Part shown: one piece after another, positions 8,027 through 58,744 of the stretch | How the letters are laid out: each line of letters opens with the position of its first letter | Position numbering within the stretch: the first letter of the stretch is position 1 | Source: Gammaproteobacteria bacterium | GTDB lineage: Bacteria > Pseudomonadota > Gammaproteobacteria > Steroidobacterales > Steroidobacteraceae | DNA length: 64,000 nucleotides | Assembly (NCBI GenBank): GCA_025359205.1 | Contig: JANYHD010000026.1 | Location: 1 to 64,000, forward strand | Reading direction: 5' to 3' | Made by a program: the position numbers and the translations under genes | The notes under the pieces: generated by a model | The model's input: the letters and a program-made list of their open reading frames with translations, nothing else | The model's database searches: none | What the model was told of the DNA's origin: nothing

Positions 8027-10009
8027 CTACGCGAGCTCCGGTCCCAGCGCCTCGCGCAACGGGCCTAGCCAGGGCTCGAAGTGACGCCACTGATCCAGGC
8101 CCTCGGTGCTTAGGGGTCGGCGCACCTGTTCTGAACTGGCGGTCCGCACGCTGCGCGTGCTGCGGTGGAACTCCAGGCATTGCGGCTCGAATTCGAGACC
8201 CAGGAACCCGAGCATGCGCCGCACCTGGTGTTCGAGGTCGGCAACCAGGTCTTCGTGCTGCACTCGCAGCACATGGCCAGGTAACACCGCATCCCAATGC
8301 TGCATGAGCTGCATGTAGAGCCGGTAGTAACGGGCGATATCCTCCAGCCCGTAGCTGAACTCCTGGCCCTGGGCGAAGTACTGCTTGAAATTGCTGAAGC
8401 AGCAGGCCATCGGCTCGCGGCGCGCGTCGATGATGCGCGCATTCGGCAATATCAGCCTGATCAGGCCGATGTGCCGGAAGTTGTTGGGCATCTTGTCGGT
8501 AAAGCGGGGTCTGTCGCTGACTCGGTATGGCCTCGTATCAGCGATGTACTGTTCGCCCAGCCGCGCGAACTCGCTATCCGTCAGTGATTCGAGGACGGCG
8601 GGATAGCGCCCCGCGTCTTCGTTGGTGCCCCGACCCTGGAGTGACTGCACCATGCGCGGGATGTCCGCGAGTTCCATGGTGCCCTCGATCATGGTGTGCG
8701 CCGCAAGTATCTGTTCGATCAACGTAGACCCGGAGCGCGGTAGCCCCACGATGAAGATCGGTGTGGTGTCCGGGCAGCCCGCGCCGGCGTGGCGGCGGAA
8801 AAGATCCGGCGTACAGACCTTGATCTGCTGCGCGATAGTGAGTTCCAGCACTTCGAGGCGAAAGCGCGAGCTGGCCTTCCGGATCTGGTTGCCCTGCAGG
8901 TAGGACTCAAAGGATCCAGCCCAGTCCTCGCGATCTTCCAGCGCTTTGCCCAGAGCGAAACTCAGGTGACAGCGATCCGTCGCGGAAGTCTCCGGCGCGG
9001 CGAGCGCCGCCCGCATGCGCGCGAGCTCCTCGTCGCTGAATCGGTAGGTTTTGAGGTTCGCGAGGCTCCAGTAGGCGTCGCCAAAGTCGGGCCGGATGCG
9101 CGCTGCCTCCCGGTACGCCTGTATGGCGGCCGGCGTATCGCCCAGGGTCTTGAGGCAGTGGCCGACGGAGAGCTGGAGGTCCGCGCTGGGAGGGCCTGTG
9201 CGTTCGGTCTCGCGGTAAGTCGCGAGCGCCTGTTCGTGCTTGCCGAGGCCGGCGTAGGCCGTCGCCAGGTTCGTGCGAAAGGTACGATTGCCGGGTTCCG
9301 CCTGGCAGAGCTGCTCCAGCTCGTCGATGGCCGCCTGGTGGCGGTGTCGCCGCAGCAGCACCGAGGCATAGTCGAAGCGCGCCGCTCGATAGCCGGGCTC
9401 GAGATCCAGTACCGCGCGCAGTAGATATTCCGCATCGTCGAGCACGTCCTGCGCGAGGCCGATCCGCGCCAGCAGGCGCATCGCTTCGACATGGTTGCCG
9501 TGTTTAAGGAGATAGGCGCGCACCATCGCCTCGGCAGCCGCCAGATCACCGTCGGAAAACAGGCTGGTGGCCGTGACGACTTCGGGCGGGAGACGCGCCA
9601 GCACGGCGACGTGCCCGGCGGCGGCACTGGCGGCCGCCTGGTCGCCGATCATGGAATACAGGCGCTGCAGCATGGTCCAGCTGCCAGACAGGGCGGGGTT
9701 GCGGGTCACCGCCTTGAGAAATGCTTCGATCGCGGCGGGCCCGTCGCGCAAACCGGCGCGGCAGTAGCCGATTTCCTGGTACAGGCGACTGAAATCGGGA
9801 GCGAGTACACGCAGTTGGGCCAACGTTTCAAGGGCGGCCTGCTCCTGCCTGAGAAAGCGTTGGCTGACGGCGATTGAATACAGCACGTCGCGGTGCGCCG
9901 GCGCATTGACCGCGAGCGCGCGCGCCGCGGTCAATGCGCCCTGGTAGCTGCCAGCTTCGATCAGCGCCTGGATGCGCGCAAGTTCGGCTTCAGGAACCGG
10001 GCCCGGCAC
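8027..10009 (-). CDS. TPR-repeat sulfotransferase
   Basis: This 660-residue protein has about 400 residues of tetratricopeptide repeats followed by a PAPS-dependent sulfotransferase domain. The 5'-phosphosulfate loop is GLPRSGSTLIEQIL, near residue 420, and the 3'-phosphate region contains DARREPMACCFSNFKQ. No signal peptide or membrane segment is evident. The GTG start directly abuts the TGA of the upstream TonB receptor (TGAGTG), indicating translational coupling. It is a close paralogue of the gene at 53955: they share PNNFRHxGLI, SVRTASSEQVR and the C-terminal PWLGPLR. Bacterial proteins of this architecture resemble tyrosylprotein sulfotransferases, but their substrates are not established. 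Coupling to a receptor suggests the target is a surface protein or the ligand. Confidence 0.85.
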   Translation of the reverse strand: MPGPVPEAELARIQALIEAGSYQGALTAARALAVNAPAHRDVLYSIAVSQRFLRQEQAALETLAQLRVLAPDFSRLYQEIGYCRAGLRDGPAAIEAFLKAVTRNPALSGSWTMLQRLYSMIGDQAAASAAAGHVAVLARLPPEVVTATSLFSDGDLAAAEAMVRAYLLKHGNHVEAMRLLARIGLAQDVLDDAEYLLRAVLDLEPGYRAARFDYASVLLRRHRHQAAIDELEQLCQAEPGNRTFRTNLATAYAGLGKHEQALATYRETERTGPPSADLQLSVGHCLKTLGDTPAAIQAYREAARIRPDFGDAYWSLANLKTYRFSDEELARMRAALAAPETSATDRCHLSFALGKALEDREDWAGSFESYLQGNQIRKASSRFRLEVLELTIAQQIKVCTPDLFRRHAGAGCPDTTPIFIVGLPRSGSTLIEQILAAHTMIEGTMELADIPRMVQSLQGRGTNEDAGRYPAVLESLTDSEFARLGEQYIADTRPYRVSDRPRFTDKMPNNFRHIGLIRLILPNARIIDARREPMACCFSNFKQYFAQGQEFSYGLEDIARYYRLYMQLMQHWDAVLPGHVLRVQHEDLVADLEHQVRRMLGFLGLEFEPQCLEFHRSTRSVRTASSEQVRRPLSTEGLDQWRHFEPWLGPLREALGPELA

Positions 10010-12709
10010 TCAGAATTTGCAGCCGACGCTCAATCCGATGACCCGCGGACGGAGTGGCGATTCCTCGACGATGAATTGATCAGTGCTGGTAAAGGAGCTG
10101 GCGTTGGAGTTGCTGAGGTTTTCACCGTAGAGGGTCGCGTTCCAGTTGTCCCTGGCAATGCCGACCGAGGCGTCGACGGTCGAAAAGGCTGGCAGTTCAA
10201 AGCGCAACCTTGAAGTTGTCAGGCCGGCCTGGGCCAGCGTCGGGTTCGCGCCGGCCTGTGTATAGGAATGGCCGGTGTGCGATGCGCCCGCCTGCGCAAA
10301 GACGTGATAGTCCGATATCGTCCATTCGTAGCGCGCGCGGACGCTGAACTGCACGGGTGGTGCGTTGGCGCTCGGCGCGCCCTTCGGGCCGAAAGGGCTG
10401 CCCAGCTGCGTGCAGCCCGTGCCGTCAGAAGCGCAATACTCAGTGATCGGTTTGCCGAAGTTCACGCTGCCCGGCACGTTATCGATGAGCACGGGTTCGT
10501 TGGTCTGCTCGCTCTGGTTCCAGGAAGCCGCAGCCTGCAGCGTCAGGCCATCGGTCGGCTTCGCCACGAGCGAGGTCTCGATGCCCCTGATGCGGAAGTT
10601 CTGTCCGTTGGTATCGAAGAAGATGTTGCCCAGCAGTCCGGGGTTGAAGAAAGCGATCTGGACGTTGTCCCAATTCTCCTGGTAGATGGCGCCATTCCAC
10701 TGCAGACGGTGGTTCAGGAATTCGGTCTTCCAGCCGATCTCGTTGTTGGTCAGCTTGTCGGACTGATAGGCCTTCGGGTTCTCGAACTGCTGTACGCCAT
10801 CGGGCCCATAGGCGTGCTGTGTGCCGCCATTCTGGTTGAAGCCGCCCGGCCGGAAACCCTGGGAATAGGTGTAGTACAACATGGCGTCGTGCGTGGCATG
10901 CCAGGTGAGATTGGCACGGCTCTTGAAGCCTGACTCAGTCGCGGCAAGATTCTGCGCGTTCAGATTGTAGGAATAGCTCGGACTGTGGCAACCATCCGGC
11001 GTCACGGCTGCTTCAAAGCAGCCAAAACTGGAAATGACGCTGCCCGCCGACGTGTTTTCGAAGCGGAAGTGGCGTGTGCCTACCGTCAGAGTCAGCACCT
11101 TCGGAATCAGGTCGTAGTCGAAAGACGCAAAGAACGCGGTCTGCTTCGTTTCGCGCACCGTGTCCTGGTAGAAGGAGCTGTGGGGCGTCTGGATGCCGGG
11201 GCCCTCGACGGTGGTGCCGGGGAAGGTGCCGATATCGGCGAAGCAGCCCGTGGTGAGCGTTGCGCTGCAGGATGGCACATTCTTGTAGCGCCAGTCGGTG
11301 CGGTCGAACAGCTTGTTGTCCTCGTAGTAAAGGCCGCCGATGAACCGCATGCGCCAGTCATCCGGCGTGCTGAGGCGGAACTCGTGCTGCATGTGTTCAT
11401 TCCGCTCGGCCGAGTGCCAGGTGGCGCTGGGGCTGAAGCAGGTCGGTGTGAGCGCTGCGTCATATGAGGTGGGCCCAAAACACTGGTAATAGTCGGCATA
11501 GAAACCGCGCGCGTAGTTGGTGTAGTCGCCGACCTGTTCGACGCGCCGCTCCAGGTAGCCACCCGTGTAGACCGCCTTCAGGTCGCCGAACTTCCCGTTC
11601 ACGGTCAGGGCCAGGTTGTTGAACTGGTCGTGATCGAAGGCGTTGTTGAACAACGTCACCTCGAGCGGGTTCAGCAGCAGCGGATTGGCCGCCGTGCTGT
11701 CCGGGGCGTTTGGCTGCTGGTAGAACACGCCCTGGGTTTCCAGCTTTTGGTACATCTCGCTGATCAGCACGTCCCACGCGTCATTGAACTTGTACAGGAC
11801 TTCGGTGCGTATGCCGCTGTAGGTCGTGGGGTTTATGGACTTGTCCGCGATCGCCGCATTGCTGAGCGAAGGGCTGCCGGGCGGAACTCCGAAGGCGGTC
11901 GCGTTCGAACCGCCCGGGCAGGCGCCGGCGACCGGCGCGCCAACGTCACACGAGGTCGCGTAATTGGCATTGTGGATGCCGACATCGGTGTCGTGGCGGG
12001 TGAAGGTCGCGGCCACGTTGTCGATGTAACCGCCACGACGATCGAAGAATGCCGCGGCGCGGACCGCCATCCGGTCCTGTATTACCGGCAGGTTAACGAC
12101 ACCTGAGATTTCACCGTTCGGGTCGCCGTGAGTCGTGACGCCTGTGCCCACCTTGAAACTGCCCTCGATCACATCGAGTTTCGGTTCATTGGTGATGTAG
12201 CGGACCGTGCCGGCCTCGGCGCCTGAGCCGAACAGCGTGCCCTGCGGACCCTCAAGCACCTCGATGCGCTTGAGATCGATGGCGTAGATGTCGAGGTTGC
12301 GGTTCGGAAGCTGACCGGACTGGTTATCCAGGTAAATCGCGACGTTCGGATACACGCCGGTCGAGCCGCTGCCCTGGCTGGCCTGGGCGCCCGCGCTCAG
12401 GCCGCGCATGAATACTTCGTTCTGGCCAGGGCCGTTGTTTGCGCTCGAGACGTTGGGCAGGTACTTGATGTAGTCGTCAAAGGTCGAGATATTCAACTGC
12501 TGCAGCGTCTGCGCCGTGAAGGCCTGCATCGAGATTGGCACGTTCTGCATGCTCTCGGTGCGGCGCTGGGCCGTGACGATGACTTCTTCGAGCGAGCCGC
12601 TGGCGGAAGTGTCGGCCGCAGCAGCGTCGGCGGCGAATGCGGCGGTGGTGGCACCGATCGAGGTGCCACCGAGGATGGCAGCAATAGCACAGGAAAGTTT
12701 CGTATTCAC
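10010..12709 (-). CDS. TonB-dependent outer-membrane receptor
   Basis: This 899-residue protein has a signal peptide (cleavage near AAFAADA), a plug domain beginning LEEVIVTAQRRTESMQNVP with the RIEVLEGPQGTLFG plug signature, and a long beta-barrel ending in the aromatic C-terminus GLSVGCKF used for outer-membrane insertion. The barrel has several Cys-containing loops. The start is GTG at 12709 with a G-rich stretch upstream. It is followed without a gap by the TPR-sulfotransferase and is paralogous to the receptor at 56036. The ligand is unknown. Its position between bet and sox operons suggests uptake of a bulky methylated or sulfated nutrient, which is inference only. Confidence 0.92.
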   Translation of the reverse strand: MNTKLSCAIAAILGGTSIGATTAAFAADAAAADTSASGSLEEVIVTAQRRTESMQNVPISMQAFTAQTLQQLNISTFDDYIKYLPNVSSANNGPGQNEVFMRGLSAGAQASQGSGSTGVYPNVAIYLDNQSGQLPNRNLDIYAIDLKRIEVLEGPQGTLFGSGAEAGTVRYITNEPKLDVIEGSFKVGTGVTTHGDPNGEISGVVNLPVIQDRMAVRAAAFFDRRGGYIDNVAATFTRHDTDVGIHNANYATSCDVGAPVAGACPGGSNATAFGVPPGSPSLSNAAIADKSINPTTYSGIRTEVLYKFNDAWDVLISEMYQKLETQGVFYQQPNAPDSTAANPLLLNPLEVTLFNNAFDHDQFNNLALTVNGKFGDLKAVYTGGYLERRVEQVGDYTNYARGFYADYYQCFGPTSYDAALTPTCFSPSATWHSAERNEHMQHEFRLSTPDDWRMRFIGGLYYEDNKLFDRTDWRYKNVPSCSATLTTGCFADIGTFPGTTVEGPGIQTPHSSFYQDTVRETKQTAFFASFDYDLIPKVLTLTVGTRHFRFENTSAGSVISSFGCFEAAVTPDGCHSPSYSYNLNAQNLAATESGFKSRANLTWHATHDAMLYYTYSQGFRPGGFNQNGGTQHAYGPDGVQQFENPKAYQSDKLTNNEIGWKTEFLNHRLQWNGAIYQENWDNVQIAFFNPGLLGNIFFDTNGQNFRIRGIETSLVAKPTDGLTLQAAASWNQSEQTNEPVLIDNVPGSVNFGKPITEYCASDGTGCTQLGSPFGPKGAPSANAPPVQFSVRARYEWTISDYHVFAQAGASHTGHSYTQAGANPTLAQAGLTTSRLRFELPAFSTVDASVGIARDNWNATLYGENLSNSNASSFTSTDQFIVEESPLRPRVIGLSVGCKF

Positions 12710-12726
12710 TTGGGCCCCCGCAATCT

Positions 12727-12771
12727 TATGGAATCAGCCATCAGGCGTGATTGCCCGACCGCTATGGAATC
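12727..12771. repeat. Direct repeat TATGGAATC upstream of the TonB receptor
   Basis: The 9-mer TATGGAATC occurs at 12727-12735 and again at 12763-12771, 36 bp apart, in the 148-bp gap between soxG and the receptor. Its place 18-60 bp upstream of the receptor start would suit a regulator site. No protein can be assigned to it. Confidence 0.4.
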
Positions 12772-12857
12772 TTCGCCAATTGGCGCAGCTGATGCAAGTT
12801 GACGCGCAGCGCCGCTGGCGCCATCGGTAATTGCAAATCGTTCGTACATCGCGCGTT

Positions 12858-13410
<553 letters not shown>

Positions 13411-13418
<8 letters not shown>

Positions 13419-16400
13419 TGAGCCGCTCCCCTTTTGAATCGTAGAAGACAGGTTGCGTCACGGTGACCGCCGACTCGCCGGCTGGCGTGGGCACGTAAAG
13501 TGTTTCGCCCATCCGCGAGCGACCGCCGTTCACGACAGCCAGCGCGATCGAGCGCCTGAGCACGGAGCTGTAATACGACGAAGTCACATGGCCTACCAGC
13601 TGCATCGGGGGCCGCTGGCCCGGCGTCGCCGCAATCTGGCTGCCTTCTTCCAGCACGTGCCTGGGATCAGCCGTCAACAAGCCAACCAGCTGCTTGCGGT
13701 TTGGGTCCTGGAGCGCGCGCTTGCGGAGTGAGACCATGCCGACGAATTCGGACTTGCTCTTGCCCACCGCCCAGCCCACGCCCGCATCATCGGGTGTCAT
13801 GGTGCCGTCCGTGTCCTGGCCCACGATGATGTAGCCCTTTTCGGCGCGCAGCACGTGCATGCTTTCAGTGCCGTAGGCGCACATCCCGTGCGCCTGGCCT
13901 GACTCCCACACCGCGCGCCACACCTCCGCGCCGTAGTCGGCCGGCACATTGATCTCGTAGCCGAGCTCGCCGGTGAAGCTGACGCGGAAGATCATCGCCG
14001 GCACGCCGCACACGAGTGCGCGCGTCATGGCCATGTGAGGGAGTGAGGCGGCCGACAGATCCGCCTGTTCGACCAGCGGCTCGAGCACGTCGCGGGCTCG
14101 CGGGCCCTGCACGGCGATCACCGCCCACTGCTCAGTGGTCGAAGTAAGCCACACCTTGAGCTGCGGCCACTCCGTCTGCAGGTAGTCTTCCATTAGGCCA
14201 AGCACGCGTGGCGCACCTCCCGTGGTGGTGGTCACGTGCAGGCGATCCTCTGCCGTGCGCGCCACCACGCCATCATCGAACACGAAGCCGTCATCGCGCA
14301 GCAGGATGCCGTAGCGGCAGCGGCCGACGGCCAGCGAGTTCCAGTTGTTGACGTACATGCGATTCATGAACTCGATCGCATCGGGTCCGGCAACTTCGAT
14401 CTTGCCCAGTGTAGTTGCGTCAAAGATGCCGCAACTACGCCGTACGACCTGACATTCGCGCGCCACGGCCTGGTGCATGTCTTCGCCACGTTCCGGGAAA
14501 TACCGGGCGCGTTGCCACATCGACACCGGCTCGAACACCGCACCGCGTGCCGCGGCCCACCCATACATCGGCGTCTTGCGCAACGGCGCGAACAATTCGC
14601 CGCGGGCGTAGCCGGCCAACCCGCCGAACCCGACCGGCAGATAGGGCATGCGGAAGGTGGTGAGTCCGACCTCAGGAATGGTGCGACCGAGCTGCCGGGC
14701 AGCGATCGCCAGGGCGTTCAGATTCGAAGTCTTGCCCTGGTCGGTTGCCATGCCGGTGGTCGTATAGCGCTTGATGTGCTCGATCGAACGGAAGCCTTCG
14801 CGCACTGCGAGACCGAGATCGGCGGCTGTGACGTCGTTCTGCCAGTCCACGAAGGCCTTGCCGCCGCGCGGTCGCGCAGCTTGGGGCAGGGTGCCAAGCC
14901 ACCCACCCCCAGCGCTGGTATCGTCGCTGACCGCAATCGTGACGGGCAGAGCCTCGAATCCGCATTCAGTGGTTGCGTCCCGAGCTGCCGTAGCCGCCTG
15001 GTTGAACACAGCCGCCAACGCAGCGCCAGTAAGACCCTTGCAGGCGCCCACGGAGCGGCAGCTCTGGCCTGCCTCCGCGGGCACGAAAACCTGTGCTGTT
15101 TCTTCCCAGCGCAGCTTGCCACGCCCCTGGGAGTGCAGGTGCACGCTGGGCGTATATCCACCAGACATCAGCAGCGTGTCGCAGCTGACCCAGTCAGTGT
15201 CCCCCGCCGCGGCGCCGTCTGCGTCCACCGCCGCAAGACCCACCGCACAGACGCGCAGATTTCCGCGCGTGCCGACTGCGGTAGTGTTCCTACGAATCGC
15301 GAGACCCGCGCCGCGTGCGGCATCGATGAGCGGCCCTGAGGCCCGTGCGCGCAGATCTGCCAGCGCAACGATCTGGGCGCCCGCCGCCTGCAGCTCGAGT
15401 GCTGTGCGGTAGGCCTCATCGTGCGCCGTCAGGATGACGACGCGCCGGCCTGGCAGCACGCCAAACCTGTTGAGGAAACTGCGTGCAGCTCCCGCGAGCA
15501 GGATGCCGGGACGATCATTTCCTGGAAACACCAGCGGCCGCTCGATTGCGCCGGTCGCGAAGATCACCTGGCGCGCTCGCACCTGCCACAGGCGTTCGCG
15601 CGGTTTCGAGGCCGGCGGCGAGGCGAGATGATCGGTCAGCCGTTCACTCAAGCACACCATGTTGTGTGGCAGGTAGCCGAACGCGGTCGTGCGCGTGAGC
15701 ACCGTGACATTCTGGGCCTGGGCCAGCTCCAGCATCGTCTCGCGCAGCCAGTCGGTGGCAGCCTTGCCATCGATGCGGGTGCCGGTGTCCGCGCGCAGTG
15801 AGCCGCCCGGCAGCGCCTGTTCATCGCAGAGCAGGACGCGCGCGCCTCTCCGGGCCGCGGTCAGCGCTGCCGCAAGGCCTGCGGGCCCTGCGCCAACTAT
15901 AAGTACCTCACAGTGACCGTAACGTTGAGCGTAGACATCCGGATCTGCCTCGGTCGCTGCGACGCCCAGTCCGGCCGCGGCACGAATCCGCGGCTCATAC
16001 AGACTGTGCCAGGCCGTGCGTGGCCACATGAAGGTCTTGTAGTAAAAGCCGGAGGGAATGAAGCGCGACAGCAGGTCGTTGATGCGGCCGACGTCGAAGC
16101 GCAGCGAAGGCCAGCGATTCTGGCTGTGCGCAACCAGGCCCTCGTACAGTTCGACCTGCGCCGCACTGAGGTTCGGAGTCGAGCGGGCCGCATCGCGCCG
16201 CACGGTGACCAGGGCATTCGGGTCCTCGGGTCCTGCCGCCATGATGCCGCGTGGGCGGTGGTACTTGAAGGAGCGGCCAACCAGGTGCACGCCGTTGGCG
16301 AGCAGTGCAGAGGCGAGCGTGTCGCCCTGCAGGCCCTGGTACGCCTGGCCGTCGAATTCGAAACGAATCGGCCTGGAGCGCTCGAGGTCGATTCCGCCCG

Positions 16401-29095: not shown

Positions 29096-30661
29096 GTGAC
29101 CAATGCCCCGATTGTAGCCCGGCGACCCTCGGGGCGCGATGCCCGGCGGGCGGAGCGCGCCGGTCCGTTGCCCGATCACCTGCGCCCGGTGCGGCCAGGC
29201 ATGACGAGCGGGCGCTATCGGCCGCTGAGCGACGGCGACGTACAGCTTATCCACCAGACCGCATTGCGCCTGCTCTCTGAAGTGGGACTTGCCGACGCGA
29301 CTGAATCAGGCGTCGAGATCATGACCAAAGCGGGGTGCAGCTTAAGCCCGCAGGGCCGGCTACTGTATCCGAAGGCTTTGGTCGAAGACACGCTCGCCAA
29401 GGCGGCGCGCAACTTCCCGCTGCACGCACAAGACCCGAAGCACGATCTCGAGCCCTGGGGCAAGCGGGCCTACTTCGGCACGGCCGGCGCGGCCGTGAAC
29501 ATGGTCGATGCGAATGGCGTCTACCGCCAGTCGACGATCCAGGATCTCTACAACATCGGTCGCATCGTCGATGTGATGGATCACATCCACTTCTTCCAGC
29601 GCGCGGTCGTACCGCGCGACATCCCGGATCCCTTCGAGATGGATTTCAATACCTGCTACGCCTCGGTCATGAGCACGACCAAGCACGTGGGCAGCAGTTG
29701 GGTGCAGCCCGAGCAGCTCGAGGCGTCGCTTGAGATGCTGCACATGATTGCGGGTGGCGAGAAGCAGTGGCGCGAACGCCCTTTCGTCAGCCAGTCAAAT
29801 TGCTTTGTCGTGCCACCGATGAAGTTCGCCACCGACGCCTGCCGCTGTCTTGAGGTCGCCGTGCGCGGCGGCATGCCAGTGCTGCTGCTGTCAGCCGGGC
29901 AGGCGGGCGCGACGGCGCCTGCGGCGCTCGCGGGCGCGCTCGCTCAGGAAGTCGCGGAGGTGCTCGCCGGCCTGGTCTACGTGAATGCGATCAAGCCGGG
30001 GCATCCGGCCATCTTCGGCACCTGGTGCTTCGTGTCGGACCTGCGCACCGGCGCGATGTCGGGCGGCAGTCCGGAACAGGCCTTGCTGTCATCGGCTGCG
30101 GGCCAGATGGCCAATTTCTACCAGCTCACGGGCGGCACGGCGTCGGGCATGACCGATTCGAAGATCGCGGACGGCCAGTCGGGCGCGGAAAAGGCCCTGA
30201 ATCACGCGCTGGTCGGCAACTCGGGCGTCAACATGATCTACGAGTCGGCGGGCATGCACGCCAGCCTGCTGGGCTATTCGCTCGAGAGCCTGCTGATCGA
30301 CAACGACATCATTGGCGCGGCCCAGCGCACGATCAAGGGCATCGAAGTCACCGAGGAGCGGCTTTCCTTCGAGACCATCAAGGACGTGTGCCTCAACGGG
30401 CCGGGCCATTTCCTCGGCAGCGGCCAGACACTGCAACTGATGCAGACGGAATACCTCTATCCCGCAGTCGGCGATCGCCGTAGCCCCAACGAGTGGATCG
30501 AACAGGGGTCGACGAACATCACCGAGCGCGCCAGGCGTAAGGTGGCGGAGATCCTTGCGAATCATTTCCCGGCGCACGTGCCGGAGGCCATCGACGCGGA
30601 GATCCGCCGGCGTTTCCCGGTGCGCCTGCCGCGCGCAGGCATGCGGCCCAAGGGGCTGTAG
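29096..30661 (+). CDS. MttB-family trimethylamine/glycine betaine methyltransferase, non-pyrrolysine (second copy)
   Basis: The 521-residue protein is a second MttB-superfamily corrinoid-linked methyltransferase. It has MTKAGCSLSPQGRLLYPK, the TGGTASGMTDSKIADGQSG region and YESAGMHASLLGYSLESLLI, without an internal amber codon. The N-terminus repeats the Arg-rich ARRPSGRDARRA element of the 66-1634 copy. The start is GTG with AGGAG 7 nt upstream, one of the clearest ribosome sites here. It leads an operon with two dimethylglycine-dehydrogenase-like genes and a DAO flavoprotein, so successive demethylation of one quaternary amine is a reasonable model. The sequence differs strongly from the other two copies, suggesting different substrates. 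Confidence 0.87.
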   Translation: MTNAPIVARRPSGRDARRAERAGPLPDHLRPVRPGMTSGRYRPLSDGDVQLIHQTALRLLSEVGLADATESGVEIMTKAGCSLSPQGRLLYPKALVEDTLAKAARNFPLHAQDPKHDLEPWGKRAYFGTAGAAVNMVDANGVYRQSTIQDLYNIGRIVDVMDHIHFFQRAVVPRDIPDPFEMDFNTCYASVMSTTKHVGSSWVQPEQLEASLEMLHMIAGGEKQWRERPFVSQSNCFVVPPMKFATDACRCLEVAVRGGMPVLLLSAGQAGATAPAALAGALAQEVAEVLAGLVYVNAIKPGHPAIFGTWCFVSDLRTGAMSGGSPEQALLSSAAGQMANFYQLTGGTASGMTDSKIADGQSGAEKALNHALVGNSGVNMIYESAGMHASLLGYSLESLLIDNDIIGAAQRTIKGIEVTEERLSFETIKDVCLNGPGHFLGSGQTLQLMQTEYLYPAVGDRRSPNEWIEQGSTNITERARRKVAEILANHFPAHVPEAIDAEIRRRFPVRLPRAGMRPKGL

Positions 30662-50228: not shown

Positions 50229-51650
50229 TCAGTAGTTGAACCAGACCAGCAGGTAGAGCGAATTGTTGTCGCCCGCGTTGCGGCCGGCGCCGTCATAGTT
50301 GCTGCTGCCGCCATTGAACTTCGTGTACTGCGTGTCCTGCAGGGTAATGCGCGTGTTCAGCCAGGGCATGTAGTTCAGCTCGGCCATCCACCCCTTGGTG
50401 TCCGGGAGTCCATTTGCGCTGCCGACTACGGCCAACACGTTGGGCCCGTCGGGCGGAGTGAGGCCGTCAGTAGCCGGATACAGGCTGGCATCGAGGCTGC
50501 CTGTCGTCGAGAACATACCCAGCGTGGCACCGTACTTGCGCTGGTAGTAGTAGTTTCCCGTGATGCGCGTCGTGGTGAGATCGTTGTACAGGTTGTCGGC
50601 GCCGCTACCGTAGCTGGCATTCAGGGTCATCTTCTCCCTGATGTGTGTTCCCGCGAGGCTGAACAGATGCTGGTCACCGATGAACTGGTACTGGAAGTCC
50701 TCGGCGTTGTCGCGGAACTCATTGGCCGGACCCTGCAGCGTGCCCGGCGACCCGCCCGGCACCAGCTTGAAGGTGGCGCCGTAGACTCCCACCGACAGCG
50801 AATGGCGACCCCACAGGTACTCGTAGGCGAGCCGGTAGTAGGGCGCGCCACCCACGATGACGTTGGAGGTCGTCCCATCCAAGGGGCCCGCGGCGCCAGT
50901 CACCGCGTTGGCCGCGCCCTGCTTGGCGGAGCGGTAGGTGCCAATCTCCCCATACAGTGCTTCATTCCACATCGCATACAGGCTGACGCCCGCAACATCC
51001 TGGCCCAGCGCGCCGTCGATCTGGGTGCCCGCGATCGGTGACACGTTGGCGTTGCTCGAGGCGTAGGGATAGCCGAACGCCGGCGTGCTGTTCCAGAGAT
51101 CCTGCACGGTCGGATTGTTGTTGGCCGTGATGCCATAAATGAGGCTCTTGTCACCGGGCAGCAGCTTGTTGTCGGCCCAGCGCAGGTCCGTGTTGTCGAT
51201 GCCGATTGTGCCGGCGTCATTGCCATAGGTCAGCTGGATGAATGCGCCCAGGCGCGGGGCGATCTTGCCCGCATAGAACAGACTGATCTGCTGCGGGAAG
51301 GCGACCGAACTGCTCTGCGACAGTGCAGCACCATCGGGGATGGCCTTCGCGATACTGGTCTGCGACACCTGCACCATCAATGAGATCGGCGGCAGGCCGC
51401 TGAGGGCGAGCATCTCGTCCTTCGTGGCGGACACGCCGCGCACCGGCTTGAGATTGTCGATGGTGTAGGCGTTGGCCTTGAAAATGCGCCCGAAGTGATT
51501 GAGTTCCGGGAACACCGTGTGGCAGGCCTCGCAGGCCATGCCCGTCTGGCGTGCAAAGCTCGGCACCGCCTGTGCGGCTGGCGCCACCAGCACTGCGGAC
51601 AGCAAAGCCGCCCACAATTTGCTGTTGCCCGTCAATATTCGCGTGATCAT
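50229..51650 (-). CDS. Cyc2-like fused cytochrome-porin
   Basis: The 473-residue protein has a signal peptide ending near AAQA, one heme motif Cys40-x-x-Cys43-His44 in FARQTGMACEACHTVFPEL, then FGRIFKANAYTI and a beta-barrel of alternating strands ending in LLVWFNY, an outer-membrane insertion tail. The layout of one N-terminal heme followed by a porin, and the FARQT..C..CH....L..FGR.FK pattern, resemble the Cyc2 family of outer-membrane electron conduits, first known from iron oxidisers. Homologues occur in many bacteria without proven iron oxidation. GGAGGT lies 8 nt upstream of the ATG. With the c4-like cytochrome it forms a two-gene operon. Confidence 0.72.
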   Translation of the reverse strand: MITRILTGNSKLWAALLSAVLVAPAAQAVPSFARQTGMACEACHTVFPELNHFGRIFKANAYTIDNLKPVRGVSATKDEMLALSGLPPISLMVQVSQTSIAKAIPDGAALSQSSSVAFPQQISLFYAGKIAPRLGAFIQLTYGNDAGTIGIDNTDLRWADNKLLPGDKSLIYGITANNNPTVQDLWNSTPAFGYPYASSNANVSPIAGTQIDGALGQDVAGVSLYAMWNEALYGEIGTYRSAKQGAANAVTGAAGPLDGTTSNVIVGGAPYYRLAYEYLWGRHSLSVGVYGATFKLVPGGSPGTLQGPANEFRDNAEDFQYQFIGDQHLFSLAGTHIREKMTLNASYGSGADNLYNDLTTTRITGNYYYQRKYGATLGMFSTTGSLDASLYPATDGLTPPDGPNVLAVVGSANGLPDTKGWMAELNYMPWLNTRITLQDTQYTKFNGGSSNYDGAGRNAGDNNSLYLLVWFNY

Positions 51651-51712
51651 CTTTTCTACCTCCAGGACTTGAATCGGTGCCGGACGCGTTATTCCCAGGG
51701 CGCGAGACTAGC

Positions 51713-51888
51713 GGCGCGATCCGGGAGCGCCTATGGCGGGATCTACCTAGTGCCTAGGTGTAGACCGAGAGAGTCCGCTCCGACGCTCAACACTTCAGTG
51801 CGGTGGCGAACGTTGAGCACGGTGGTAGCGCGTGCCAGATTTACCTGTGGCGGAATCGGGACCGGCCTATGGAGTAGGTGCAGACCGA
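51713..51888. repeat. Degenerate duplication of the sulfotransferase 3' end
   Basis: Segments 51713-51768 and 51849-51888 share GGCG..ATC.GGGA, GCCTATGG and TAGGTGyAGACCGA in the same order and orientation. The upstream copy has an extra 16 nt that supply the left half of the palindrome. The second copy overlaps the last codons of the sulfotransferase gene ending at 51867. Confidence 0.55.
51742..51764. promoter_or_regulatory. Palindrome ACCTAG-TGC-CTAGGT upstream of the cytochrome-porin
   Basis: A perfect 6-bp inverted repeat with a 3-bp spacer (51745-51759) extends outward by TCTA/TAGA with a 2-nt bulge. It lies about 95-115 bp upstream of the cytochrome-porin start in the 216-bp gap 51651-51866, a usual place for an activator site. 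The gap also holds a second inverted repeat, GCTCAAC (51785-51791) with GTTGAGC (51812-51818). No coding sequence is seen in the gap. Confidence 0.5.
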
Positions 51889-53948
51889 AGCAGAGGTTGG
51901 AGCGGTGCGATGAATTGTTGGTAGTTCCGCCAGCGCCCCGCGGATTTGGTGCTGATCTTCTGCCGCACCTGCCATTTGCTGGCGGTGATAACCACGCGAT
52001 CCGTCTTGTGGAATTCGAGGCAACGCGAATCCCACGGCAGGCCGACGAATTCCACCATGCGGCGGCTCCAGGTCTCGGGATCGGTTACCAGTGATTCGTA
52101 CGGCACCTCGAGCAGGCTCGCCTTGGGGAGCGATTCGCGCCAGTGATCGGTGATCCGCAGATATTGTGCGTAGTAGTGCGCCAGGTCGTCCAGATCGTTG
52201 GCATAGGGACCGATGTTGTAGAAATTCTGGAAGTAGATCGACAGGCAGGTATCGAATGGATGGCGCTGCATGTGGATGATGCGTGCGCGCGGCAGGGCCG
52301 CATGGATCAGGCCGGCATACAGGAAGTTGCCCGGCATCTTGTCGACTACACGCGCCGCGCTGCCAGCCAAGGCGCCCAGGCGCGCCAGGTATTGCTCGCG
52401 CATTGAGGCGAGCAGTGCGGCTTGGGGCTGGCCCTCGGCCTCCGCGCGCGCGAACCGATCGTAGCTGCCGTTCCAGTAAATAACTTCACCCGCGCCGTAG
52501 ACGTCAGGATGCGAGGCCAGAATCTGTTCCGCGAGCGAAGTCCCGGAGCGGGGCATGCCGATGATGAGTACCGGCAGTTCCGACGCGGCGTCCAGTGCCG
52601 ACGCAGTGGTCGCTCCCTCCTGAACGTCCATGGTTTCGGCAGTGAATCGCCCGATGATCGCATCGACACGCCGGACCAGCCTGGCGCGATCGTATTTCGG
52701 GCCCGCCCGCCTGGTGAGTTCATTGGCCTGGCGGAAGTGGCCAAAGGCCGCATCGTACTGCCCGCGATCGTCAAAATACTTTCCCAGTGCGTAGTGCAGG
52801 CTGATTTCATGCGCCAGCGGCACCCGCCCACCGAGCAGGCGTTCAGCGCCGGCGCGCCAGGCCGAATCCGCGCTGCTCATGCGCCGGTGCGAGGCGATGC
52901 TGGCGTACGCGGGCGCGAAGGCCGGATTGATGGCAATGGCGCGCTGGAACAGGGGCTCCGCCTCGGCGAACTGGCCGCGATCGGCCAGCAGTTCGCCGAG
53001 TGAGGCCAGTGCCTCGACGTTGTCCGTGTCTATGGCGAGCGCCGCGCGACAGCTGGCTTCCGCTTCAGAGGGTCGCCGCTGCTGGCGCAGCACCAGCGCC
53101 AGGCCCAGGTGTGCCGGAACCCAGCGCGGTTGCAGCTCCAAGGCGCGCCTGTAGCTCGCGGCCGCTGCGTCGACCCGACGCAGCTCAAACAGCACGCTGC
53201 CCAGGTTGCAATGCAGCTCGGCATTGGCGGGATCGAGCTCGACCGCCCGGGCGTAGACGGCCGACGCTTCGTTGCGTTCGCCCAAATCGCGCAGCACGCC
53301 GCCCAGGTTGGCGAGGACCTGCAGGTCCTGGGGCCGGAGAGCCGCGGCCGCACGGTAGCAGCGCGCGGCGTCCTCGTAACGGCCCAGTTGCAGGTAGGCG
53401 TTGCCCAGGTTGTTGTGGGCCTCGGCGTGGCGGGGTTCGAGCCCCAGCGCGCGCTGGTACAGCGGCAGGGCTTCCTCCACGCGCCCCAGCGCCTTGAGCG
53501 CATTGGCACAATCGACCAGCGCCTCGACATCGTCCGGTTGCAGCCCTATGGCCCGCTGCAGGCTCGCCACGGCGGCGTCCCACATGCCGCGGTCGTGCAG
53601 GTAGGCGCCGAGGTTCCGGTGTGACTCGGCATCAGCAGGCATCAGGGCAGCCGCCTTTTGCAGGGCCTGCAAGGCATCGCCCCCCTGGCGCAGCTGCGCG
53701 ACGCCCAGGATTTTCCAGGCGATGCCCGAGTCGGGTTGCCGTGCCAGCAGCAATCGGGCACCGCGTTCGGCCTCGTCGGGTCGGTCCTGGTCGAGCTGTG
53801 TGACCAGCACGCCTATCTCGTGGACGCTGGCGCCTGTGTGCGGCGGAGGGGGCATCGTTTTGGCGCCGGCAGCGGCCGCCTGTCCGCAACAATGCTTGTA
53901 TTTCCTGCCGCTGCCGCAAGGGCAGGGATCGTTTCGGCCCGGTTTCAT
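51867..53948 (-). CDS. TPR-repeat sulfotransferase with N-terminal SEC-C zinc motif
   Basis: The 693-residue protein begins with a SEC-C-type zinc motif (GRNDPCPCGSGRKYKHCCG), continues with about ten tetratricopeptide repeats, and ends in a PAPS-dependent sulfotransferase domain with IIGMPRSGTSLAEQILASHP (phosphosulfate loop, near residue 470) and MQRHPFDTCLSIYFQNF. SEC-C occurs at the C-terminus of SecA, where it binds SecB, so the motif could bring this enzyme to nascent or exported proteins. The gene starts 6 bp after the stop of the next sulfotransferase and belongs to the same operon. It is more distant from the other two copies than they are from each other. Confidence 0.85.
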   Translation of the reverse strand: MKPGRNDPCPCGSGRKYKHCCGQAAAAGAKTMPPPPHTGASVHEIGVLVTQLDQDRPDEAERGARLLLARQPDSGIAWKILGVAQLRQGGDALQALQKAAALMPADAESHRNLGAYLHDRGMWDAAVASLQRAIGLQPDDVEALVDCANALKALGRVEEALPLYQRALGLEPRHAEAHNNLGNAYLQLGRYEDAARCYRAAAALRPQDLQVLANLGGVLRDLGERNEASAVYARAVELDPANAELHCNLGSVLFELRRVDAAAASYRRALELQPRWVPAHLGLALVLRQQRRPSEAEASCRAALAIDTDNVEALASLGELLADRGQFAEAEPLFQRAIAINPAFAPAYASIASHRRMSSADSAWRAGAERLLGGRVPLAHEISLHYALGKYFDDRGQYDAAFGHFRQANELTRRAGPKYDRARLVRRVDAIIGRFTAETMDVQEGATTASALDAASELPVLIIGMPRSGTSLAEQILASHPDVYGAGEVIYWNGSYDRFARAEAEGQPQAALLASMREQYLARLGALAGSAARVVDKMPGNFLYAGLIHAALPRARIIHMQRHPFDTCLSIYFQNFYNIGPYANDLDDLAHYYAQYLRITDHWRESLPKASLLEVPYESLVTDPETWSRRMVEFVGLPWDSRCLEFHKTDRVVITASKWQVRQKISTKSAGRWRNYQQFIAPLQPLLRSAPTP

Positions 53949-53954
53949 ACGCGT

Positions 53955-55970
53955 TCAGTCGCAATAGTGCTCAAGGGCATCACCCAGGGCATCCCGCAGC
54001 GGCCCGAGCCAGGGATCGAAGTGCTTCCACTGCTCCAATCCCTCGCGAAAGATCGGCTGGCGCACCTGCTCGGAGCTGGCGGTGCGCACGCTCCGCTTGG
54101 TCTTGTGGAACTCGACGCACTGCGGTTCGTACTCCAGGCCGCAAAAATCGAGGATGCGGCGCACGCTGCCCTCGAGGTCATCAACCACGTCCTCGTGCTG
54201 TACGCGCAGCACCCATCCGGGCAACACGCGGTCCCAGTGACGCATCAGTTCAAGGTAGGTACGGTAGTAGCGCGCAATGTCTTCGAAACTGTAGGTGAAC
54301 TCCTGGCCCTTGGCGAACAGCTGTTTGAAATTGCTGAAGCAGCAGGCGATCGGTTCGCGCCGGGCGTCGATGATCCGGGCATGCGGTAGAATCTGATGAA
54401 TGAGCCCCAGGTGCCTGAAATTATTGGGCATCTTGTCTATAAACTGCGGCTTGCCGCTGCGATAGACACGCGTGGCATCCAGGTAGTGCTGGCCCAGGCG
54501 CCGGAAATCCTCAGCGCCCAGTTCGGTCAGCACCCGCGGGTAGCGCGGGTGGCGGAGGTCTGGATCGCGTCCGCGGAGCTTGGCGACGATCTGCTGGACG
54601 TTGGCCAGCTCCTGCGTGCCTTCGACCATCGAATGCGAAGCCAGGATCTGTTCGACCAGCGTTGAGCCGGAACGGGGCAGGCCGACGATGAAGATCGGAT
54701 CCGGATCAGGCGCGCCGCAGCCGGGATGGCGCGCAAAGAATTCTGCCGTGCACACCTCGATCTGCTCGCGGGTGTTGGTCTCGATGATTTCGGGCTGGTA
54801 GTGGCTCTCGGAGCGCTTCAGGGCGTTGCCCGTCTCGTAACAGCGGAAGGCTTCGGTATAGTCAGCCCGGTCTTCCAGTGCCTTGCCCAGCGCAAAACAC
54901 AGGTGGTAGCGATCGACCCGGGCCAGCGAAGCATCCGCCAGCGAGGCCCGGATCCGCGCCAGTTCCTCGTCCGTGAATCGATAGGTCTTGAGGTTGGCAA
55001 GGCTCCAGTAGGCATCGCCGAACCCGGGCCGGGCGGCAGCCGCCTTGCGGTAGGAAGCAATCGCTTCCTCGCGCCGGCCCAAGGTCTTCAGTGCATGCGC
55101 GATGGAAAGGTGCACGTCGGCATCGGCGCTGGTGCCCTGCAGGACCTCCCGGTACAGCTTCACCGCGCGTTCGTGCTCGCCGAGACCCACGCAGGCGGTT
55201 GCCTGCAGGCCCTGGTAGTGCAAGCGGTTGGCTGGGTCCTCGCGCACCAGCCGCTCGAGTTCCCGCTGTGCCTCCGGGTACTTTTGCAGCTCGATGAGTG
55301 TCTCGGCGTACTCGGCGCGGGCCAGCCGGTAATCCGGCGCGAGCTCGAGCAGCGCAGACAACAACAGCTCCGCGTCGTCGTAGACCTTGCGTGACATGCC
55401 AATCCGCGCGAGCAGCCGCATGGCCTCGACGTCTTCCATGTGCTGGAGCAGGTAAGCACGCACGCGGGCCTCGGCCGCGTCCAGGTCGCCATCCATAAAG
55501 AGGCCGGTCGCGGTCACGACTTCCGGCGGCAGGTTTCTGAGCGTCGCCACGTGCCCGGCCGCCATGGCTGTGTTGCCAGGCTGCTTGAGAATGCGGTACA
55601 GGCCCTCGAGCATGTTCCAGCTGGCCGGCAGGGCGTTGTTGATGTTCACAGCAGCCAGGAAGGCCTCGAGCGCTTGTGGCGCCTGGCGCAGCTGCACGTA
55701 GCAGTGGCCGCGCTCCTCGTACAGCCGGCTGAAGCGCGGGTAATGTTGCCGCAGGATCTCCAGCGTGCGCAGCGCCTCGGGAATGCGGCCGAGGAGGCGC
55801 TGCGAACTGGCCACGTAGAGCAGGGTGTCCCGGTCGCTGGGCACCCGCGCCAGCAGCGCTTCGCCCGCCTGCAGCGCCTCTGCAAACCTCTTCTGACGCA
55901 GCAACTCAGCCAGGCCGGCTAGCTCGGCGGCGGTCACGGCGGCGCCAGGCGTGGCATCCGTTGCATTCAT
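53955..55970 (-). CDS. TPR-repeat sulfotransferase (paralogue of 8027)
   Basis: This 671-residue protein has tetratricopeptide repeats over about 400 residues and a C-terminal sulfotransferase domain with IVGLPRSGSTLVEQILASHS and DARREPIACCFSNFKQLF. It matches the 8027 gene through its length, including GDAYWSLANLKTYRF, DKMPNNFRHLGLI and SVRTASSEQVRQP. It follows the TonB receptor at 56036, as its paralogue follows the receptor at 10010. Here, however, a strong intrinsic terminator ends only 8 nt before the ATG, and there is no Shine-Dalgarno sequence. Expression may depend on read-through. Confidence 0.86.
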   Translation of the reverse strand: MNATDATPGAAVTAAELAGLAELLRQKRFAEALQAGEALLARVPSDRDTLLYVASSQRLLGRIPEALRTLEILRQHYPRFSRLYEERGHCYVQLRQAPQALEAFLAAVNINNALPASWNMLEGLYRILKQPGNTAMAAGHVATLRNLPPEVVTATGLFMDGDLDAAEARVRAYLLQHMEDVEAMRLLARIGMSRKVYDDAELLLSALLELAPDYRLARAEYAETLIELQKYPEAQRELERLVREDPANRLHYQGLQATACVGLGEHERAVKLYREVLQGTSADADVHLSIAHALKTLGRREEAIASYRKAAAARPGFGDAYWSLANLKTYRFTDEELARIRASLADASLARVDRYHLCFALGKALEDRADYTEAFRCYETGNALKRSESHYQPEIIETNTREQIEVCTAEFFARHPGCGAPDPDPIFIVGLPRSGSTLVEQILASHSMVEGTQELANVQQIVAKLRGRDPDLRHPRYPRVLTELGAEDFRRLGQHYLDATRVYRSGKPQFIDKMPNNFRHLGLIHQILPHARIIDARREPIACCFSNFKQLFAKGQEFTYSFEDIARYYRTYLELMRHWDRVLPGWVLRVQHEDVVDDLEGSVRRILDFCGLEYEPQCVEFHKTKRSVRTASSEQVRQPIFREGLEQWKHFDPWLGPLRDALGDALEHYCD

Positions 55971-55978
55971 GGGCGTCC

Positions 55979-56011
55979 AAAAAAAGGGCGGACACCGAGG
56001 TGTCCGCCCTT
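55979..56011 (-). terminator. Intrinsic terminator after the second TonB receptor
   Basis: On the minus strand 13-bp perfect arms (core GGCGGACACC paired with GGTGTCCGCC, loop of 2) are followed by seven T residues (55985-55979). It lies 25 bp after the receptor stop and 8 nt before the downstream sulfotransferase start, so it is either a full terminator or an attenuator. Confidence 0.92.
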
Positions 56012-56035
56012 GATCTTAACCAATGCGAATGCGGC

Positions 56036-58744
56036 TTAGAACTTGTAGCCGAATTCCAGCGTCATCACACGGGGCCGCAGCGGCACCACCTGCTTGATGA
56101 ACTGACCCGAACTGATGGCCGTGGCCGCACCGTTGTTGCCGAGGTTGTTGACCGTGAGCTGTGCCGTCCAGGCATCCTTGGCCACGCCGACTCCGCCGTC
56201 ATAGGTGTCGTAGCCGGGAATGTCGTACTTGAGCAGCGTCGTGGTATACGCCACGTTCGCAGCGTCGCCACTCGGGAAGCTCGCGGGCTCGTTCCGATAG
56301 TGCGTGGTGTGGTTCATGCCCAGGCTCCAGAAGCCCTTGTATTCGCCGGCGGTGAAGTCGTAATGGGCGCGAACATTGAACTGCACCGGTGGCGAGAACG
56401 CTGGCGCAGTGCCGAGCACGCCGTACGGGTTGGTATAGGGCTGGCCCTTGATCTGCGTGATGCACTGGCCGATTGGGGTCGGATTGTCCGCCGCGACGCG
56501 GTTGCTCGTCAGGCAGGGCGCATTCGTCTGGTTCGAACTGTTCCAGGAGCCCGAGCCCTGCACTGTCAGGCCGGGCGTCAGGCGGGCGACAAACTGCAGT
56601 TCGAGGCCCTTCACCTGGTAAGTCGGACCGTTGATGTCGAAGGTCGTGTTACCAAGATGGGTGGGATCAAACAGCGGCAGCTGGACTTGCTTCCAGTCCA
56701 TGATGTAACCGGAGGCATTGATCTGCAAGCGGTGGTTGAGCCACTCGGTCTTGAGGCCGACTTCCTTGTTGGTCAGGGTGTCCGAATCGTAGCCAAAGGG
56801 TTTGTTGAACTGCTTGCCAGTGCCGTCAGCATTGTACGCGGCAACGGCCTTGAGGAAGATCGTGCTGCCGTTGATGTTGGTGTGGGTTCGGTTGAAACCA
56901 CCGGGGCGGAATCCTTCCGAATAGGTCGCGTAGGCCAGCACGTCAGGCGTGATGTGCCAGGTGATGTTGCCGCGGTACTTGGTGCCGCTCTCGCTCTTGT
57001 GCAGGTTGATGCCAAAGCCCTGGCGTATCGAATTGTTGGGCACGTTCAACAGGCTCGACGAGGCGCTGTAATACTCAGAGCCATCCTCGAACTCGTCGTA
57101 CTTGTAATGACGCGCACCGACCGTCGCCGTCAGCACCTTCGGGATCAGGTCAAAATCAAAGGAGCCGAAGAACGCGGTCTGCTTGTAGCCGCGCCGCACG
57201 TCCTCGCCGAAGGCCGTGCCCGCGTTCTCACGCAGGCTCGGGTCGTTGGCGAAGTAGCCGGCGATAGGACCAGGTGCTGCGACGCAATCGGGTCTAGGCG
57301 GCACGATCGGGCCCTTGGTCGGATCCAGATTCCAGGGCGCCAGCGCGATCGCGAGGTTCGCAGGCGTGCATTGCGGTACGCCCATGTAGTTGAAGTTCAT
57401 GTCGTCATAGATGGTGAAGTTCTCGTGGAACACACCCACCAGGGCCCGGAAGCGCTTGTCATCGGGGGTCGAAATACGCAGCTCATGGCTATCGTGCGTG
57501 TTCCTGACCTGGTCACGCCAGGAACCCACCGGCGGGTAGCAGGTAGTCGGCTTCGCGGAGCGGAAGTAGGAATAGCCCGCGCCCTTGCCGCTGCAGGCGT
57601 AGTACGAACCATGGAAGGAGCGCAGGTAGTTTGAATAATCTTCCTGGCCGTCAATGTGGCGGGCCAGATAGCTGCCGGTGTAGACCACCTTCAGCAGGTC
57701 GCTCAGCCGCCCGTTCACCGTCCAGGCCGTGCTCTGGTAGCGGTCCTTTTCGAAGGCCGGGGCGAAGTTCGTCGTCTGGAATGGGGCCAGGGCATGGCCG
57801 TCTGGAGCCAAGGGTTCAGTGGACCAGTAGCCGTGAGCCTGGGAATTCTGATAGTTCTGCTGCAACAGCACATCCCAGTCATCGTTGATCTGGAATAGCG
57901 CCGACAGGCGCAGGCCCTTCTTGTCCACCGTGTTGAGGTTGTTGCCCTGCACGCCAGCGTTGCCGACTTCCCCGCTTCCCGGGCGCACTGGCGGCTCGCC
58001 GACGCCCACGAGCGTCTGCGGAAGCACCGAAATCGTGCCTGGCACGTTCGAGATATAGCCGCCGCGGCTGTCGGTAAATATTGTCGCGCGCAGTGCGAAC
58101 TTGCCAGGGATGAGCGGCAGGTTGAGCGTGGCGTTCACGTTCGAATTCGGGTCGCCACCGGCGGTGACGCCATAACCCGCGTTAAAGTTGCCGCTGGTTT
58201 CGTTCAGCTTCGGCTTGTTCGTGATGTAGCGAACCGCGCCGGCCTGCGAGCCGCCACCGAACAGTGTGCCCTGCGGACCTTCGAGCACCTCGACCCGTTC
58301 GAGGTCGACCATGTATACGTCGTTGTTGCGCGCCGGGAACTGCATCGACTGGTCGTCGAGGTACAGCGCGACGTTCGCGAACGGGGCCGTCGTCGACTGC
58401 GACTGGTTGCCCGAACCACCGCTGCTCAGACCGCGCATGAAGATGTTGCCGGTGCCGGGGGCGCCGTTGCCGCTGAAGGACACGTTTGGCGTGTACTTGA
58501 GCAGGTCATTCATGGTGGTGACGTTCAGGCTTTTCAGCTGCTCGCCGCTAACGGCCTGGATGGTGATAGGCACGTTCTGGATGTTTTCATTGCGGCGCTG
58601 CGCCGTAACCACGATCTCTTCGAGGCCGCCGCTAGGCGCGGCAGTCGCATCGGCCGCCATCACGGTCGGGGCAAAGCCCGTAGCAGCCGTGGTGGAACCC
58701 AAAATGGCCCAGATAGCGCGCTGAATGGATTGATTTGAACTCAA
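56036..58744 (-). CDS. TonB-dependent outer-membrane receptor (second copy)
   Basis: This 902-residue receptor has a signal peptide (cleavage near TVMAADA), plug region LEEIVVTAQRRNENIQNVP with RVEVLEGPQGTLFGGG, and a barrel ending in MTLEFGYKF. It is paralogous to the receptor at 10010: they share RYITN.PKL, GGYI.NV and FRPGGFN segments. The TTG at 58744 is chosen because GGGGAG lies 7 nt upstream and it yields a normal signal peptide. The gene ends at an intrinsic terminator. Its ligand is unknown; the divergent MttB gene suggests a methylated amine or a conjugate carrying one. Confidence 0.92.
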   Translation of the reverse strand: MSSNQSIQRAIWAILGSTTAATGFAPTVMAADATAAPSGGLEEIVVTAQRRNENIQNVPITIQAVSGEQLKSLNVTTMNDLLKYTPNVSFSGNGAPGTGNIFMRGLSSGGSGNQSQSTTAPFANVALYLDDQSMQFPARNNDVYMVDLERVEVLEGPQGTLFGGGSQAGAVRYITNKPKLNETSGNFNAGYGVTAGGDPNSNVNATLNLPLIPGKFALRATIFTDSRGGYISNVPGTISVLPQTLVGVGEPPVRPGSGEVGNAGVQGNNLNTVDKKGLRLSALFQINDDWDVLLQQNYQNSQAHGYWSTEPLAPDGHALAPFQTTNFAPAFEKDRYQSTAWTVNGRLSDLLKVVYTGSYLARHIDGQEDYSNYLRSFHGSYYACSGKGAGYSYFRSAKPTTCYPPVGSWRDQVRNTHDSHELRISTPDDKRFRALVGVFHENFTIYDDMNFNYMGVPQCTPANLAIALAPWNLDPTKGPIVPPRPDCVAAPGPIAGYFANDPSLRENAGTAFGEDVRRGYKQTAFFGSFDFDLIPKVLTATVGARHYKYDEFEDGSEYYSASSSLLNVPNNSIRQGFGINLHKSESGTKYRGNITWHITPDVLAYATYSEGFRPGGFNRTHTNINGSTIFLKAVAAYNADGTGKQFNKPFGYDSDTLTNKEVGLKTEWLNHRLQINASGYIMDWKQVQLPLFDPTHLGNTTFDINGPTYQVKGLELQFVARLTPGLTVQGSGSWNSSNQTNAPCLTSNRVAADNPTPIGQCITQIKGQPYTNPYGVLGTAPAFSPPVQFNVRAHYDFTAGEYKGFWSLGMNHTTHYRNEPASFPSGDAANVAYTTTLLKYDIPGYDTYDGGVGVAKDAWTAQLTVNNLGNNGAATAISSGQFIKQVVPLRPRVMTLEFGYKF

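Follow-up and report, generated by a model that had tools for sequence, protein, structure and literature searches.

The window analysed here is the whole 64,000-nucleotide stretch of contig JANYHD010000026.1 from a gammaproteobacterium of the Steroidobacteraceae, whose genome comprises 2.98 Mb in 43 contigs, and it holds two cassettes in which the gene of a TonB-dependent receptor adjoins that of a sulfotransferase bearing tetratricopeptide repeats (TPR). The cassettes consist of the following features:

10010..12709, reverse strand: left TonB-dependent receptor, 899 residues, PF07715 and PF00593, with a signal-peptide-like start, a plug and a 22-strand barrel.
11423..11527, reverse strand: loop 4 of the left receptor, residues 395-429, predicted to be extracellular, with the tyrosine-rich motif DYTNYARGFYADYYQC...C, a candidate sulfation site.
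8027..10009, reverse strand: left TPR-sulfotransferase, 660 residues, TPR and PF13469, with the TPR arm at about residues 1-400 and the sulfotransferase domain at about 415-655.
56036..58744, reverse strand: right TonB-dependent receptor, 902 residues from the TTG at 58744, PF07715 and PF00593.
57455..57712, reverse strand: loop-4 region of the right receptor, matching the loop profile with 95.5 bits, motif DYSNYLRSFHGSYYAC...C.
55984..56011, reverse strand: terminator-like hairpin of 12 pairs with a T tail, between the right receptor and enzyme genes, of a kind that recurs in such pairs.
53955..55970, reverse strand: right TPR-sulfotransferase, 671 residues, ATG start, TPR and PF13469.
51867..53948, reverse strand: third, more divergent TPR-sulfotransferase, in the right cassette, 693 residues, with an N-terminal SEC-C motif (Pfam).

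A first-pass annotation, made from the letters alone, had described the cassette as occurring twice (12709-8027 and 58744-53955), with paralogous receptors, paralogous enzymes and a third sulfotransferase on the right, and the open reading frame coordinates and Pfam domains bear this out: the two enzymes share 58% identity and the two receptors 44%, and the third enzyme (53948-51867) combines TPR with the SEC-C motif. SEC-C is a metal-binding motif that occurs in SecA too, and here it might recruit the enzyme to export substrates. Both receptors have the plug and the barrel domain, and none of the NCBIfam receptor models listed reached its cut-off for them; the TTG start of the right receptor was read by eye from a GGGGAG and a signal-peptide-like N-terminus. 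As for the claim that receptor and enzyme are made together, it holds on the left, where the enzyme GTG begins at the base right after the receptor TGA, but on the right matters are less simple, the 12-bp hairpin lying between the two genes.

The linkage of receptor and enzyme is certain. In the genome, which has eight PF13469 matches and 28 receptor Plug matches, six of the eight PF13469 genes directly adjoin a Plug-domain receptor (the two window cassettes plus single pairs on contigs C10, C12, C18 and C40), with the receptor first in three pairs and the enzyme first in the other three; the seventh gene encodes the right cassette's tandem enzyme and the eighth lies inside a 309-residue frame. 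Relatives were surveyed in the 80 loci that best matched an alignment of the six enzymes of the genome and that therefore sample one enzyme family; the search yielded at least 572 relatives among 595 candidate stretches. A same-strand receptor immediately adjoins the enzyme in 69 of these 80 loci (65 upstream, 3 downstream and 1 on both sides), mostly with a gap of about 100 bases or less, orientation and gap being measured on stop-to-stop frames. The loci come from Gamma- and Alphaproteobacteria, among them Dyella sp. C11 (L048), Novosphingobium nitrogenifigens DSM 19370 (L061) and Erythrobacter sp. NAP1 (L087), and the best named matches of the enzyme are mostly gammaproteobacterial, two of the first five among the matches listed being Steroidobacteraceae. 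As to the other 11 loci, the enzyme stands at a contig start in L049, L062 and L070, lies in pieces in two frames from the locus start in L084, has a divergent neighbouring receptor in L051, follows the order receptor-enzyme-enzyme in L059, and has its receptor one gene upstream in L097 and L114 and, by eye, in L107. No receptor was found at L056 and L075 with a profile built from eight receptors of the window's own genome. The profile misses divergent receptors, and it was blind in 3 of the 19 regions fetched for a Plug hit and in L097, where Pfam finds the receptor. At L075 (2898-5669) the TPR-sulfotransferase gene is directly followed by an adenosine-phosphosulfate (APS) kinase gene, which places the enzyme beside a supply of its donor, with no receptor found nearby.

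Receptor and enzyme have also diverged together. Over 77 pairs (the partial enzymes of L062, L070 and L084 were left out of the enzyme alignment) the correlation between receptor distances and enzyme distances is 0.84, a value that none of 2000 permutations reached, and common descent of whole genomes could be the cause. Inside the one genome, however, its six paralogous pairs still show a correlation of 0.91, matched in 4 of 720 permutations. Across 147 genomes from the order, the window's own among them, the enzyme family is present in 115, the receptor subfamily in 72 and both in 70; in the two genomes with the receptor subfamily only, the receptor is truncated at the edge of a contig. The co-occurrence is not exclusive in the reverse direction, 45 of the 147 genomes having the enzyme family without the receptor subfamily. 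With the loop motif alone, at strict cut-offs, the same genomes divide into 49 with both, 4 with the loop only, 13 with the enzyme only and 81 with neither, and the receptors of the four loop-only genomes are either truncated by a contig edge or stop less than 300 bases from one; in these profile scans at most eight or at most six candidates were scored per genome. Because genomes and loci share descent, the figures of the Fisher, rank and permutation tests overstate the independent evidence. The earlier view that the pairing reflects a system rather than chance, for which a genome search for receptor genes adjoining TPR and PF13469 genes had been proposed, is strongly supported by the survey of loci, by the six linked genes of the genome, by the co-divergence of the paralogues and by the co-occurrence across genomes.

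The PF13469 profile matches the two enzymes with 172.7 and 170.7 bits (cut-off 27), and a PRSG-type phosphosulfate-binding loop is present, with R425 invariant over 78 alignment rows. Residues E446 and K506 align with the catalytic Glu and Lys of the animal protein-tyrosine sulfotransferases (TPSTs), and both are invariant in the enzyme alignment. In sequence and in predicted fold the catalytic domain is nearest to the TPSTs and the TPR arm to O-GlcNAc transferase; eukaryotic O-GlcNAc transferase and SPINDLY likewise place a transferase domain behind a TPR superhelix, with another catalytic domain and another donor. Whereas TPSTs are Golgi-anchored type II membrane proteins, no such anchor is seen in the bacterial enzyme, though neither a membrane nor a signal predictor was applied to it; the first element of its model is a TPR-type helix at residue 7. 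The best matches, TPST1, TPST2 and a tick enzyme (PDB 5wrj, 3ap1, 8w5z), have the PRSG-type loop, the Glu and the Lys in common with it at about 20% identity, and differ from it in its TPR arm of about 400 residues and in its gene standing beside that of a TonB receptor. The enzyme is likely a protein sulfotransferase.

On the receptor side, a common tyrosine motif, DYxxY...YYxC...C, lies in predicted extracellular loop 4; the strand positions of the loops come from a count by eye along the secondary structure of the left receptor. Tyrosine-rich loops also occur in two receptors of the genome with no adjacent sulfotransferase, L126 (C28, full motif) and L129 (C16:143000-152000, loose motif), which are possible in-trans substrates.

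The hairpin of the right cassette ends 13 bases ahead of the enzyme ATG and leaves little promoter room, which makes read-through the probable source of the enzyme; such an arrangement probably yields much receptor and little enzyme. Perfect-stem terminators stand within 100 bases past the receptor stop in 32 of the 71 pairs with the receptor upstream (shuffle mean 0.3, maximum 2, in 30 rounds) and past the enzyme stop in 1 of 70; the scan found no such hairpin in the left cassette. This fits an enzyme that acts on the receptor, but also any other enzyme needed at a low level.

The best single explanation, which we favour tentatively and rate just short of an even chance, is that the enzyme sulfates tyrosines of its own partner receptor in the cytosol, guided by its TPR arm, before the receptor is exported. 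It is the TPST-like catalytic domain, the TPR arm and the conserved tyrosine motif in an extracellular loop that favour the receptor as substrate. Each cassette would then be a two-gene receptor-modification unit, whose enzyme, a cytosolic protein sulfotransferase dependent on 3′-phosphoadenosine-5′-phosphosulfate (PAPS), would join TPST-like action to an arm like that of O-GlcNAc transferase. The arm would capture the unfolded partner receptor ahead of export and the catalytic domain would sulfate at least one of the clustered tyrosines of loop 4 (DYxxY...YYxC...C), while the terminator past the receptor gene would let some transcripts through, giving much receptor and little enzyme. Once exported and inserted, the receptor could display at its mouth a negatively charged, disulfide-closed loop that aids ligand binding, the ligand in many cases probably being a cationic quaternary amine (choline, carnitine or glycine betaine, for example), which a sulfated aromatic loop would suit. 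We infer the tyrosine target, the partner receptor as substrate, the cytosolic place, the timing and the ligand.

Several observations weigh against this explanation. Loop receptors without a nearby enzyme are common, 37 of the 118 listed having no listed enzyme within 5 kb (the adjacency counts are lower bounds, 118 loop-receptor entries being set against 114 enzyme entries, which reach down to about 700 bits and include G044 from further down), and the motif is kept in all 14 clear orphan loop receptors that were fetched; such receptors would need modification in trans, or else the tyrosines serve ligand binding only. Only two of the six linked receptors of the genome, those in the window, have the full motif, the receptors on C12 and C18 having the loose motif and those on C10 and C40 neither, and over the 77 linked receptors the full motif is missing in 17 and the loose one in 10. 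Loop 4 does not co-vary with the TPR arm above other receptor regions (partial correlation 0.10, against -0.10 to 0.19), and over the whole barrel neither tyrosines nor acidic-Tyr pairs are enriched in linked receptors relative to unlinked ones; the local cluster alone differs. The set of 24 unlinked receptors includes L051 and L114 and comes mostly from one genome. The linked receptors largely form one subfamily, so that the loop they have in common is owed in part to common ancestry. As regards the ligand, genes of a betaine/choline/carnitine transporter (BCCT) are found in 23 of the 45 loci L071-L115 and in none of the 35 loci nearest to the window's enzyme (L036-L070).

Co-divergence of receptor and enzyme would likewise be explained if the enzyme sulfated an exported peptide, a siderophore-like compound or another ligand for later uptake through the partner receptor. 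This is the role proposed for MbnS in the methanobactin operons, where one operon contains both a sulfotransferase and a TonB-dependent transporter and MbnS would modify the ligand (PMC3621798), so that a printed precedent exists. However, MbnS belongs to PF00685, was reported from only two Methylocystis operons and is mentioned there without a TPR arm. The recurrent neighbours that were identified in our loci, in a comparison covering open reading frames of at least 150 residues, are a BCCT importer, oxidoreductases, a mandelate-racemase-type enzyme, MarR and a major facilitator superfamily (MFS) transporter, and not ligand biosynthesis genes (precursors below 150 residues were not searched for); the methanobactin precursor and MbnB/MbnC were not among these neighbours, though neither by name nor below 150 residues was a search made for them. 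On balance we regard a sulfated ligand as unlikely.

The loop receptors without a nearby enzyme (37 of the 118 listed), together with the 45 of 147 genomes that have the enzyme family and no receptor subfamily, would fit another protein or a surface polysaccharide as the substrate, the adjacency to receptors then reflecting joint regulation. Against this stand the matched divergence of the paralogues within one genome, the presence of the enzyme in 70 of the 72 genomes with the receptor subfamily, and the closeness in sequence and fold to protein-modifying enzymes, and we give such a substrate as little credence as a sulfated ligand.

Sulfation of the partner receptor would have wider consequences. 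Sulfotyrosine is a recognition tag on animal and plant cell surfaces, and to our knowledge the RaxX type alone is well known in bacteria, nor do we know of any function for a class of bacterial TPR-sulfotransferases, for which a function is proposed here. Bacteria may, in other words, chemically decorate their own surface receptors, which, if true, bears on their uptake of scarce nitrogen compounds and on the recognition of the cell surface by phages and bacteriocins; the conserved pair in Gamma- and Alphaproteobacteria makes this directly testable, with named loop tyrosines and with quaternary amines as candidate ligands. RaxST/RaxX of Xanthomonas oryzae is similarly reported to tie a bacterial sulfotransferase to the sulfated tyrosine of an exported gene product, but the substrate there is a peptide with a 60-residue precursor, in the raxX-raxSTAB cluster, whereas here an outer-membrane receptor of about 900 residues adjoins. 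The TPR_2~TPR_1~Sulfotransfer_1 architecture was catalogued in 2005 in Mesorhizobium loti and Xanthomonas axonopodis (PMC554113), and these proteins resemble ours in joining TPR to a sulfotransferase; the entry gives the architecture only and names no partner, substrate or receptor linkage. The TPR-sulfotransferase architecture, bacterial tyrosine sulfation and ligand sulfation beside a TonB transporter thus have precedents, and no description of a dedicated pair of TonB receptor and TPR-sulfotransferase appeared among the entries listed from the open-licence literature, subscription papers lying outside the search.

Around and between the cassettes lie MttB, sarcosine-oxidase-like and dimethylglycine-dehydrogenase-like genes and glycine-betaine-type ABC (ATP-binding cassette) transport genes, with a sarcosine-oxidase operon upstream of the left receptor. 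The window also holds a choline sulfatase gene and, beside the left cassette, two genes of choline and betaine oxidation:

4862-6334, forward strand: betaine-aldehyde dehydrogenase, above the NCBIfam cut-off, beside the left cassette and convergent with its enzyme gene.
6364-8019, forward strand: choline dehydrogenase, above the NCBIfam cut-off, convergent with the left enzyme gene.

Three genes of the MttB family (trimethylamine methyltransferase) are found at 66-1634, 29096-30661 and 58994-60580, the last divergent from the right cassette, and a soxG-like gene contains a run of GCC repeats at 13260-13320 (a poly-alanine stretch).

Among the 80 loci, neighbour clusters and a profile count place a BCCT gene in 23 (L071, L072, L076-L078, L082, L086, L087, L089, L090, L093, L096, L098, L100-L105, L108, L111, L112 and L115), and 21 of them have it no more than 400 bases from the pair, on either side and in either orientation. 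PF02028 was confirmed in all four members scanned with Pfam, and of four scanned with NCBIfam two exceed the cut-off of its BCCT model. No BCCT gene was found in 19 regions around other receptors of the genome or in 14 around orphan loop receptors, these receptor regions, rather than random stretches, serving as the controls. Eight of the 80 loci contain methylamine-type genes (for MttB, sarcosine oxidase or dimethylglycine dehydrogenase), and 29 contain a gene of either kind, BCCT or methylamine-type; other neighbours are relatives of aldehyde dehydrogenase (12), hydroxyisobutyrate-dehydrogenase-type enzymes (9), GMC oxidoreductases (8) and MarR (8). For some of the family, the BCCT neighbour suggests quaternary amines as ligand or nutrient. 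Not every cassette fits: betaine and choline cut-offs are missed by the GMC enzyme of L036 and by two aldehyde dehydrogenases, that of L050 and that of the C40 cassette. That the enzyme instead sulfates a nutrient after uptake (for trapping, storage or detoxification), for instance a choline-like compound whose product the adjacent catabolic genes process, agrees with these counts and with the choline genes of the window, but we consider it very unlikely, since the choline sulfatase from which the first-pass annotation had drawn its alternative of sulfated small molecules is indeed in the window but has a relative in 0 of the 80 loci, which makes that link weak, and since a long TPR arm with a TPST-like active site would be unusual for small substrates.

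In nine of the 80 loci (L066, L069, L079, L083, L093, L097, L107, L113 and L114) a Sulfotransfer_2-like gene and an Asp/Asn-beta-hydroxylase-like gene (PF05118) are present, always together, and Pfam confirmed all those scanned, three of the former and four of the latter. These loci hint that modifying enzymes linked to receptors form a broader class, possibly with several per receptor. A broader reading, of a widespread system in which dedicated TPR-guided tyrosine sulfotransferases equip loop 4 of their own receptors, ahead of export, with a sulfotyrosine cluster that recognises quaternary amines (choline, carnitine, betaine), and in which some lineages add a further sulfotransferase and an Asp/Asn beta-hydroxylase to the unit, is possible though rather doubtful. 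A PF05118 search of the window's own genome gave no match, and as the controls likewise gave none it is uninformative. The order receptor, second sulfotransferase, TPR-sulfotransferase, hydroxylase is seen in Caulobacter and Brevundimonas (L097 and L114) and, by eye, in Phenylobacterium (L107).
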